Below, one piece after another: positions 23,978 to 42,630 of a stretch of 64,000 nucleotides of DNA; the first letter of the stretch is position 1; the number at the start of each line of letters is the position of its first letter. A program made the position numbers and the translations under genes. The notes beneath the pieces were generated by a model that saw only the letters and a program-made list of their open reading frames with translations, ran no database searches and was not told the DNA's origin. The stretch is from Hansschlegelia quercus (GTDB lineage Bacteria; Pseudomonadota; Alphaproteobacteria; Rhizobiales; Methylopilaceae): NCBI RefSeq assembly GCF_004310425.1, contig NZ_SIUB01000003.1, positions 310,001 through 374,000 of the forward strand, given 5' to 3'.

Positions 23978-24919
23978 ATGGCCCGTTGCCTCGTTTTGCT
24001 GAACCCGCGGGCGGGCACGTTGAAGGATCTTGCAAACAAGGCCGGGAGCCATGAGAGCCCGGCGGAGCTGGTGGCCGGCGAGTTCGGCGCGGCCGGCAAG
24101 GCGGTCGACGTGCGGATGGTCCCGCCGCGCGACCTCTCCTCCGCGCTTAAGGACATCGAGCATGGCGATGATCATGACGAGATCATCGTCGGCGGCGGCG
24201 ACGGCTCGCTGTCCCGTTCGCTCGGCCGGCTGCTCGCGTCACGCAAAACCTTCGGCGTGCTGCCCTTCGGCACGATGAACCTGCTCGCCCGCGATCTGGG
24301 CGTGCCGGCGGAGATGAAGGAGGCGATCGCTGCACTCGCGCGCTCGGAGCCGCGACGAGTGGACCTCGCTTCCGTGAACGGGCGGGCGTTCCACTCGATC
24401 TCCGGCCTCGGCTTCTTCGCGCAGATGGCGCAGGCGCGCGAGGCGGCGCGAGGTCTGAAGGGACTCGGCCGGTTCACAGGCTTTGCGGTGGCGGCCTTCC
24501 GCGCCTTCTTCCGCTCAGGCCGGTCGCGTTACGAACTCGTGATCGACGGCTCGCCCCGCCACGTGGATGCGACGGCCGTGCTCGTCACCAACAACGCCTT
24601 CGAGAGCGGCTGGCGGCGCGCCCGGCTCGACGAGGGCAAGATCGAGGTGATCGTCGCCCATGCCGGCACGATGCGCGAGCGCCTGAGGCTGGGCTACGAC
24701 GTGATCCGCGGGCGCTGGCGAGACAATCCGCTGATCGAGAGTTTTCGCGCGACGACGGTCGAGGTCGACAAACTCCGCCGCCGCCGCGTCTGGGTGGCGA
24801 CCGACGGCGAACTGACGCGCGAGAACTCCCCCGTCCGCTACGAAGCGATGCCGGGCGCCGCCCTGATGCTGACGCCGATCACCCCGCGCGGCGGCGCTGC
24901 CGAGGCGCCGCCTGCCTGA
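23978..24919 (+). CDS. Diacylglycerol/lipid kinase family protein
   Basis: 313 residues. DAGK catalytic domain: LVLLNPRAGTLKDL at the N-terminus, IIVGGGDGSLSRSLG (GGGDGS nucleotide loop), LPFGTMNLLARDLGVP. The C-terminal beta-rich domain has a conserved TDGELT. Related to YegS and bacterial DgkB, which phosphorylate diacylglycerol or other lipids at the membrane; the exact substrate is not predictable. The large palindrome begins 23 bases after the stop. Confidence 0.86.
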   Translation: MARCLVLLNPRAGTLKDLANKAGSHESPAELVAGEFGAAGKAVDVRMVPPRDLSSALKDIEHGDDHDEIIVGGGDGSLSRSLGRLLASRKTFGVLPFGTMNLLARDLGVPAEMKEAIAALARSEPRRVDLASVNGRAFHSISGLGFFAQMAQAREAARGLKGLGRFTGFAVAAFRAFFRSGRSRYELVIDGSPRHVDATAVLVTNNAFESGWRRARLDEGKIEVIVAHAGTMRERLRLGYDVIRGRWRDNPLIESFRATTVEVDKLRRRRVWVATDGELTRENSPVRYEAMPGAALMLTPITPRGGAAEAPPA

Positions 24920-24942
24920 GGGGCCCGAGCTCGGAAGCACTG

Positions 24943-25032
24943 CCGTTATGCCCATCTTCGGACATCCACGACTTGACCGTTGCGCGAGAGCGCAACGGTC
25001 AAGTCGTGGATGTCCGAAGATGGGCATAACGG
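24943..25032. repeat. 43-bp perfect inverted repeat with GAGA loop
   Basis: Bases 24943-24985 are followed by GAGA (24986-24989) and then their exact reverse complement at 24990-25032. All 43 pairs match. The arm begins CCGTTATGCCCATCTTCGG and ends GACCGTTGCGC. As plus-strand RNA the loop is a GNRA tetraloop; the opposite strand would have UCUC. No U-run follows, so it is not a standard intrinsic terminator. It lies between the lipid kinase and the small gene upstream of murA. Confidence 0.95.
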
Positions 25033-25078
25033 TCGTGGTGATGTCGGCGTGCTTGCAAACGTTCTAGCATCAGCAGCC

Positions 25079-25252
25079 ATGCCGCCCTCCGATTCGCCCC
25101 CGCAGAAGCCCAAGACCGGCCGCTCGGCTGAAGTCGAGGCGCGCGAGGTGGAACGGCGTGAGCGGTCGGCGGCGGCGCTTCGCGAAAACCTCAGGAAGCG
25201 CAAGGCGGCTGCTCCTCCGAAGCGCGCTCCGGAAAACGACGGCGGGGCCTGA
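25079..25252 (+). CDS. Small, highly charged conserved hypothetical upstream of murA
   Basis: 57 residues, mostly one amphipathic charged helix: SAEVEAREVERRERSAAALR followed by a Lys/Arg/Ala run and a disordered Pro-rich tail. Small proteins with a similar ALRENLRKRK-like core commonly precede murA in Rhizobiales; function unknown. ATG 25079 lies 47 bases after the palindrome and about 107 bases before murA. Confidence 0.65.
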   Translation: MPPSDSPPQKPKTGRSAEVEAREVERRERSAAALRENLRKRKAAAPPKRAPENDGGA

Positions 25253-25359
25253 AGTCCGCCGGCTTTCGTTGTGCCCTGGCCTCCGCTGCGATAGACCCCG
25301 GTTTTCCCCTCGGCTCGCGCAGTTTCTGAGGCTGCGTCGCCCCTCTCGGAGGTCCCTTC

Positions 25360-26652
25360 ATGGACCGCATCCGCATCGTCGGCGGCGCGCCGCTCAACGG
25401 CCGCATCTCGATCTCCGGCGCCAAGAACGCCGCTTTGCCGCTGATGATCGCGAGCCTGCTGACGTCCGAGACGCTGACGCTCGAAAATACGCCGCGCCTC
25501 GCCGACGTAGCCCAGCTCAAGCGCATCCTCGGCCATCACGGCGCCGAAGTGACCGTGGAGGGTCGGCGCGCCGCGCAGGATCCTTTCCTCGGCGACACCG
25601 TCCGGCTCACCGCCGCCGAGATCGTCGACACCACGGCGCCCTACGACCTCGTGTCGAAGATGCGGGCGAGCTTCTGGGTCATCGGGCCGTTGCTGGCGCG
25701 CATGGGCGAGGCGCGCGTCTCGCTGCCCGGCGGCTGCGCGATCGGGACCCGGCCGGTCGACTTCTTCCTGACGGGCCTCGCTTCTCTCGGCGCCTCGATT
25801 GACATCGACAGCGGCTATGTCGTCGCGAAGGCGCCGGCCGGCGGTCTCATCGGCGGCCGCGTCGTGTTCCCGAAGGTCTCGGTCGGCGCGACGCATACGG
25901 TGCTGATGGCGGCCACGCTCGCCCGTGGCGAGACGGTGATCGAGAACGCCGCCCGCGAGCCCGAAATCGTCGACCTCGCGGATTGCCTGATCAAGATGGG
26001 CGCGAAGATCGAGGGCGCGGGCTCGTCCACGATCCGCATTCAGGGCGTGAACGCACTGTCGGCCGCGCGCCACTCGGTTCTGCCGGATCGCATCGAGACC
26101 GGCACCTACGCGATCGCCGTCGCGATGGCGGGCGGCGACGTGCTGCTCGAGGGCGCGCGCTACGACCTGCTGGAGTCCGCTTTCGACGTTCTCGTCGAGG
26201 CCGGCGCCGAAGTCACCGCCACCAATGAGGGCGTGCGCGTCACGCGCAACGGCCACGGCATCGCGCCGGTCACGGTCACGACCGCGCCTTATCCTGGCTT
26301 CCCGACCGATCTGCAGGCCCAGCTCATGGCGCTCGCCTGCCGCGGAAAGGGACGCTCGACGATCACCGAGACGATCTTCGAGAACCGCTTCATGCATGTG
26401 CAGGAGCTCGCGCGGCTAGGCGCCCGGATCCACCTCGACGGCGACACCGCGACGATCGACGGCGTCGAGAAGCTGACCGGCGCGCCGGTGATGGCGACTG
26501 ATCTGCGCGCCTCCGTCTCGCTCGTGATCGCAGGCTTGGCCGCGGAAGGTGAGACGATGGTCAACCGGGTCTACCACCTCGACCGCGGCTTTGAGCGGCT
26601 GGAGGACAAGCTCTCCGCCTGCGGCGCGACGATCGAGCGGGTCGCGGGTTAG
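25360..26652 (+). CDS. murA: UDP-N-acetylglucosamine 1-carboxyvinyltransferase
   Basis: First committed step of peptidoglycan synthesis: transfers enolpyruvate from PEP to UDP-GlcNAc; target of fosfomycin. 430 residues. [16 protein letters not shown] at the N-terminus, the active-site Cys in [14 protein letters not shown] (the Cys is present, so sensitivity is expected), and [19 protein letters not shown] 25360 follows CGGAGGT at 25347-25353. First large gene of a cluster reaching yacG. Confidence 0.97.
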
Positions 26653-42528: not shown

Positions 42529-42533
42529 CTGCC

Positions 42534-42630
42534 GTCATTCCGGGCTTGTCCCGGAATCCATTTCCTCCACGGTCAGTCCAGTCCGGCGTCGACTGCGGAA
42601 ATGGGCCCCGGCGCCTCGGCCGGGACGACG
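42534..42630. repeat. Composite palindromic (REP-like) repeat between rplT and pheS
   Basis: ATTCCGGG (42537-42544) and CCCGGAAT (42550-42557) form a perfect hairpin with loop CTTGT. Next, CCATTTCC (42558-42565) pairs with GGAAATGG (42597-42604), and CCCGGC/GCCGGG follows at about 42607-42624. The CATTCCGGGCTTGTCCCGGAA core resembles extragenic repeats widespread in Rhizobiales genomes. No other copy was noted in this window, so the REP assignment is partly knowledge-based. Confidence 0.6.

Follow-up and report, generated by a model that had tools for sequence, protein, structure and literature searches.

The perfect 90-base palindrome at positions 24943–25032 of the window (the whole 64-kb stretch of DNA analysed here, from the genome that we call G000) belongs, in our reading, to a repeat family that is dispersed through the genus and made up of CGTC-type REP units in head-to-head dimers, and its arms probably became perfect through a fold-back template switch; to family membership and this origin jointly, we assign a probability of about 0.78. 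The element has the anatomy of a dispersed family with a biased genomic location, and variants that are rare in that family are mirrored in its two arms. What sets the element apart is solely its perfect state, and the likely mechanism behind that state is already known. The palindrome as a whole most likely records a mutation within a repeat that is itself largely selfish or neutral.

Anatomy of the palindrome and its repeat family

The element consists of two fully complementary 43-base arms with the loop GAGA (24986–24989; TCTC on the minus strand) between them: the left arm (24943–24985, plus strand) pairs with 24990–25032 at 43/43 positions, and the right arm (24990–25032, minus strand) is its exact reverse complement. 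Divided into tag, stem and tail after the available extract of the CGTC-REP description (PMC3733652), the left arm comprises, from the outside in, an outer C (24943), the tag CGTT (24944–24947), the REP unit ATGCCCATCTTCGGACAT (24948–24965), a CCA tail (24966–24968), and the spacer half CGACTTGACCGTTGCGC (24969–24985). The right arm mirrors these parts as spacer half (24990–25006), CCA tail (25007–25009), REP unit (25010–25027), CGTT tag (25028–25031), and outer base (25032). Read from the sequence, the stem of the unit itself has two mismatches within its first 7 pairs. The arms reach 48 nt if two mismatches are allowed, and the first base beyond each arm is already unpaired; since the flanks match inversely at only 10 of 30 positions, no flanking DNA is duplicated at the palindrome.

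In single-strand folding, the palindrome was predicted to reach −100.5 kcal/mol as RNA (z −15.1) and −62.6 kcal/mol as DNA (z −19.0), and 0 of 200 shuffles were as good in either case. A preliminary description of this DNA had reported 43 pairs around a GAGA loop, a GNRA-like loop in plus-strand RNA, and a stem without a U-run behind it, and each of these points was borne out, as GAGA fits GNRA on the plus strand and no U-run was found downstream of the palindrome. Its statement that nothing else in the window resembles the element is correct for perfect repeats, as no other perfect inverted repeat in the window with a loop of up to 20 exceeds 12 bp, but it passed over a second, imperfect REP-like dimer at about 42533–42630. 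This second dimer is likewise head-to-head, belongs to another sequence family, and combines CGTCATTCCGGGCTTGTCCCGGAATCCA with CGTCGTCCCGG on the minus strand; a dimer resembling it was found upstream of the murA unit in another genome of the genus (G010, locus L203). Rfam gave no match that reached the gathering score around the palindrome (24700–25500), where 17 sub-threshold matches on both strands were led by microRNA hairpin models, and on the whole window it gave two tRNAs and nothing more. No match to the palindrome was obtained in plasmid and phage collections (blastn, E up to 0.001).

The preliminary description had also proposed that the arm be compared with the genome and its relatives, and a DNA search with the element did reveal a dispersed family: matches were obtained in 10 of the 12 further genomes from the genus and in none of 48 from outside it (with at most 14 candidates scored per genome, the match numbers of this search are minimum values). 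The exact core ATCCACGACTT-N5-35-AAGTCGTGGAT was present in 184 copies in 12 of the 13 genus genomes (G000 to G012, with 2, 9, 7, 18, 20, 11, 11, 38, 4, 11, 0, 8, and 45 copies, respectively), while the reversed control pattern was found 0 times. In a sample of 289 genomes from across the class, a looser core (W at one place per half) occurred in 2, the window genome being one of them; as this core is still an exact pattern, the search would not pick up repeats that are related more distantly. The DNA search and the looser core together identified four further copies of the family in the window genome, all imperfect, of which three give arms of 16–28 nt at 82–94% with a repeat finder; the other (C7:588757, L007), for which the repeat finder gave no inverted repeat of at least 14, folds as an imperfect hairpin.

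An ordinary arm reads, from the outside in, CGTC, the small hairpin ATGCCCG..CGGGYAT with its variable inner sequence (7 fixed pairs plus variable inner pairs), CCA, CGACTT, and a spacer half. The tag CGTC is carried by 294 of 328 arms (164 of the 183 distinct copies had both tags parsed), and the CCA tail, which the window copy has in both arms, lies within the search core and is therefore present by selection in the 183. In ordinary copies, the ends and the core are complementary, while the unit hairpins and spacer halves usually differ between arms.

The placement counts are approximate because our own simple codon-usage gene predictor misses genes (around the element, it called the kinase gene and murA and missed the small ORF and a pseudouridine synthase gene). 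By these counts, intergenic copies with both neighbours called (n = 166) lay between tandem genes in 105 cases, convergent genes in 52, and divergent genes in 9, so that 157 of 166 are tandem or convergent, compared with 60, 15, and 30, respectively, among comparison gaps of 100–600 nt (n = 105). Convergent placement is enriched (Fisher test, P 0.0015) and divergent placement depleted (P 2e-7). The 166 exclude, from the 183 copies, 10 with an overlapping gene prediction and 7 situated at an edge, and the median distance of copies to gene 3' ends is 41 nt.

A reading of the family as a RAYT-mobilised REP (REPtron) was rejected, since this would need a Y1 transposase and PF01797 (Y1/RAYT-type transposase) had no match in the window genome; the same search was positive in 1 of the 13 genus genomes and in 5 of 14 control genomes.

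Origin of the perfect arms

To see how far the window copy departs from its family, we used 183 distinct members of the family out of the 184 counted, each picked by the exact core, so that copies with decayed cores fall outside the comparison. The longest perfect stem was 11–19 bp in 181 of these copies, 34 bp in L104, and 43 bp in the window copy, whose folding energy was also the lowest of the 183 (−98.9 vs a median of −66.1). L104 (1501–1589; G004:C3:396191–396279) combines its 34-bp stem with a 20-nt spacer, and its rare unit subtype is the closest to the one in the window copy; homodimers of this subtype, ATGCCCGTCTTCGGGC, are seen in both G004 (L104) and G009 (L105). Exactly identical units in both arms were found in 2 of 156 parsed copies, namely the window copy and L104. 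A strict avoidance of identical units was considered and dropped, as the deficit is weak (2/156 vs 5.35 expected, with 414 of 5000 shuffles as low). Arms evolving in concert across the family were likewise rejected: re-pairing the arms at random raised their mean score from 10.85 within copies to 13.11 (sd 0.30), and all 2000 permutations scored higher than the real pairs. Much of the low likeness within copies seems to come from the two unit loops having their pyrimidine side on the same strand, as in 126 of the 167 copies whose arms could both be called (a further 16 were uncallable).

Against this background, three variants of the window copy stand out. The tag CGTT occurs on 3 of 328 family arms, an A after ATGCCC on 4 of 337, and GGAC before the core on 3 of 366, and each time two of these are the arms of the window copy, which is also alone among the 164 parsed copies in having the same non-CGTC tag on both sides. 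If the arms were independent, the chance that the second would match all three variants, taken as the product of their frequencies outside the window copy, is about 5e-8. The spacer halves, which normally differ in the family, are mirror images as well, and the shared half, GACCGTTGCGC, fits the profile of a canonical left half (+5.99 bits) and not that of a right half (−2.85), both profiles being built from 96 copies. As a half that scores as left is present in both arms, the canonical right half appears to have been overwritten. Compared with the 96 canonical copies, the loop was closer as TCTC in 55 and as GAGA in 11, with a tie in 30; the loop letters thus lean weakly toward the right arm as the original, and the symmetry of the palindrome is itself silent on which arm was the template.

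We infer that a fold-back template switch is the simplest account of these features. In such an event, a replicating strand would fold back inside an imperfect palindrome, copy one arm as its template, and rejoin the normal template near the outer end of the element, with the outcome that the other arm, including its unit hairpin and spacer half, would be replaced by an exact mirror copy. As expected of a template-switch product, the element has three mirrored family-rare variants together with a mirrored spacer half, a combination that is hard to explain by separate mutations and that one switch would cover entirely. Among the 13 genomes, there was no strain with the pre-event sequence, because the kinase–murA neighbourhood is unique to the window genome. 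The homodimer subtype of L104 and L105 may represent a parent form, in which case the symmetry of the arms would be partly inherited and the three substitutions and the spacer would be left for the switch to explain. The preliminary description had listed the scar of an inverted-duplication event among its explanations, and this idea survives in part: the arms do look like mirror copies made by local copying, but the copying is confined to a pre-existing dispersed repeat and the flanks are not duplicated.

Other explanations were weighed as well, with odds that overlap and need not sum to one. In the first, compensatory selection, the element acts as RNA (as an RNase III site, a 3'-end stabiliser, or a terminator), and changes in one arm were later matched in the other. 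The position of the copies behind genes, at the short median distance from 3' ends given above, would suit such a role, as would the predicted folds, in which the left arm pairs mainly with the other arm in 173 of 183 copies and mainly with itself in 9. However, the other copies lack matched arms, as the re-pairing comparison showed, and no structure of the family depends on mirroring of the spacer halves. Two tests for selection on the transcribed RNA strand in tandem copies were also negative, as wobble at the core-adjacent mismatch was found 19 times on the gene-sense strand vs 29 on the other (P 0.19), and loop polarity was unbiased (42 to 31, P 0.24). We therefore regard compensatory selection as improbable.

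A new homodimer, either transposed in already perfect or formed when a single unit was doubled by fold-back, would fit the observation that two other copies of the rare unit subtype are homodimeric or nearly so (L104, with its 34-bp stem, and L105). Yet with its three family-rare variants and its half of the standard dimer spacer, the arm looks like an old, mutated dimer half rather than a fresh unit; moreover, the PF01797 transposase had no match in the window genome and was found in one of the 13 genus genomes. The odds of this origin appear poor to us. The preliminary description was right to warn of an assembly or library fold-back artefact, as perfect hairpins are liable to chimeric reads, but an artefact is very improbable here, because the palindrome belongs to a dispersed family and stops at that family's own outer boundary as ordinary copies do, its flanks are unrelated and hold separate genes where a fold-back chimera would run into inverted flank, and the assembly is otherwise good (completeness 100, contamination 0.05, 17 contigs).

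The kinase–murA junction

The palindrome lies behind a gene for a YegS/DAGK-type lipid kinase (23978–24919, plus strand), which matched Pfam DAGK_cat and YegS_C over the cut-off while all its NCBIfam matches, including TIGR00147 at 71 bits, were below their own cut-offs; the kinase stop codon is 23 nt ahead of the palindrome. Starting 46 nt behind the palindrome is a small ORF (25079–25252, plus strand) whose translation is a charged product of 57 aa with no Pfam or NCBIfam match; counterparts of it occur upstream of murA in most genus genomes and are apparently missing in G012. The murA gene follows at 25360–26652 on the plus strand (TIGR01072, 553.7 bits, cut-off 392.7). Between the palindrome and murA is the promoter-like sequence TTGTGC-N17-TAGAC (25269–25296, plus strand), and TTGYGC-N17-TAGAC recurs with invariant spacing at −76 to −108 from the murA start in 12/12 genomes (G007, with a split murA, was left out), although this motif was defined after viewing the sequences and without a shuffle control. 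Perhaps it is the murA promoter; a stricter sigma-70 scan of 24800–25420 found no promoter-like site, the conserved motif included. In G007, murA matches in three pieces (L205, L206; G007:C1:2968234–2969522), which represents a pseudogene or a sequencing error in an assembly that is 88% complete.

The proposal in the preliminary description that the palindrome is a termination or attenuation barrier for murA found no support. An intrinsic terminator or murA attenuator does not fit, because there is no U-run behind the stem and because the promoter-like motif, unseen by the sigma-70 scan but conserved ahead of murA in 12/12 genomes, is located in the window between the palindrome and murA. The sole terminator-like match in 24800–25420 is at 25240–25261 (shuffles gave a mean of 0.5). 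Overall, there is no sign of a role of the palindrome in murA control, and most likely it has no special role for that gene. As RNA, the palindrome is predicted to be an extreme stem that might affect kinase transcripts.

The junction between the kinase and murA (24920–25078) was found only in the window genome among the 13 genomes in which the kinase surroundings were read, which makes the site of the palindrome specific to this lineage. Of the 11 relatives whose murA locus is uninterrupted, 10 have a different gene ahead of the murA unit, and in the window genome that gene is now at G000:C13:152408–153553. Formation of the junction by recombination between copies of the element is unsupported, as there are no core motifs at the locus of the usual murA-upstream gene (L332) or at that of the peptidase encoded behind the kinase in G005 (L333). 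A copy of the palindrome's element was found behind the kinase in G007, another REP-like dimer behind the kinase in G012, and one upstream of the murA unit in G010. These cases show that gaps near the kinase and murA accept such repeats, and they do not make the repeats the cause of the junction.

Possible turnover of homodimers and relation to known repeats

We tentatively consider, as a doubtful extension of the proposed origin, that template switching from arm to arm is a regular force in REP dimers, in which perfect homodimers form and are then lost or decay, leaving behind the mismatched pairs that are prevalent in the family. If so, the window copy would represent a recently formed homodimer, in a genome without SbcD over the curated cut-off. 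SbcD was over the cut-off in 2 of the 13 genus genomes vs 8 of 14 controls, and the best SbcD-like protein of the window genome (421 aa; L342 1727–2989, G000:C7) scored 56 against a cut-off of 77.65. This weak match bears on the survival of a perfect palindrome and is suggestive, yet it is common to most of the genus. With 182 other copies as background, an isolated striking palindrome can be read as an example of how the arms of a bacterial interspersed repeat become homogenised, and if this is borne out in sister strains, REP dimers would be a natural record of template-switch mutation and of the removal of perfect palindromes. For the window genome itself, a likely false lead on murA control is removed.

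The superfamily to which we assign the repeat is already described, and the genus family is an addition to the CGTC REPs. In the literature searched, including the main text of PMC12306157 (in which the word Methylopila does not occur), the family was undescribed in the genus, which is probably Methylopila. According to the available extract of Di Nocera et al. 2013 (PMC3733652), CGTC-tagged REPs are an alphaproteobacterial superfamily of mostly head-to-head dimers, whose unit has an unpaired outer CGTC tag (with TGTC and CCTC variants), a stem of 8–9 bp starting from AT, a loop of 4–5, and a CCA tail. They favour gaps between genes in tandem or convergent order, near 3' ends, and have no dedicated transposase. 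Four CGTC families are distinguished in that extract, with unlike units predominating in CGTC-2 and CGTC-3 and like units in CGTC-1; why unlike pairs are favoured in most families "has no obvious explanation", in the words of the authors, who suggest that such pairs may be protected from degradation.

The genus family agrees with this extract in its CGTC tag, its AT-started stem, its CCA tail, and its head-to-head dimers with a spacer, and also in its unlike pairs, its tandem or convergent placement near 3' ends, and its alphaproteobacterial host. As for a transposase, the search covered PF01797, which had a match in one of the 13 genus genomes, the window genome not being that one. The genus is unnamed in the extract, and the family is placed with the CGTC REPs by description rather than by consensus. 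The window copy, unlike the CGTC REPs described there, has the tag CGTT, one step off and outside the named variants, as well as degraded unit hairpins and arms that are perfect through the spacer. The GTAG-REPs and BIMEs with RAYT transposases, as far as the same extract covers them, are similarly small extragenic palindromes, often in head-to-head pairs, but differ in that the tag of the genus family is of the CGTC type and PF01797 was not found in the window genome.

For the perfect arms, the closest known process is quasipalindrome correction. Template switching that turns quasipalindromes perfect is established in E. coli, according to the available portion of PMC7202029, and has been proposed as the source of perfect RNA hairpin stems in that of PMC8794818. 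The changes considered in these portions have in common with the element that an imperfect inverted repeat is perfected in one step and that the changes are clustered and mirrored. The element differs from them in that its arms are 43 nt each and that the event is deduced from the rest of the family rather than observed.
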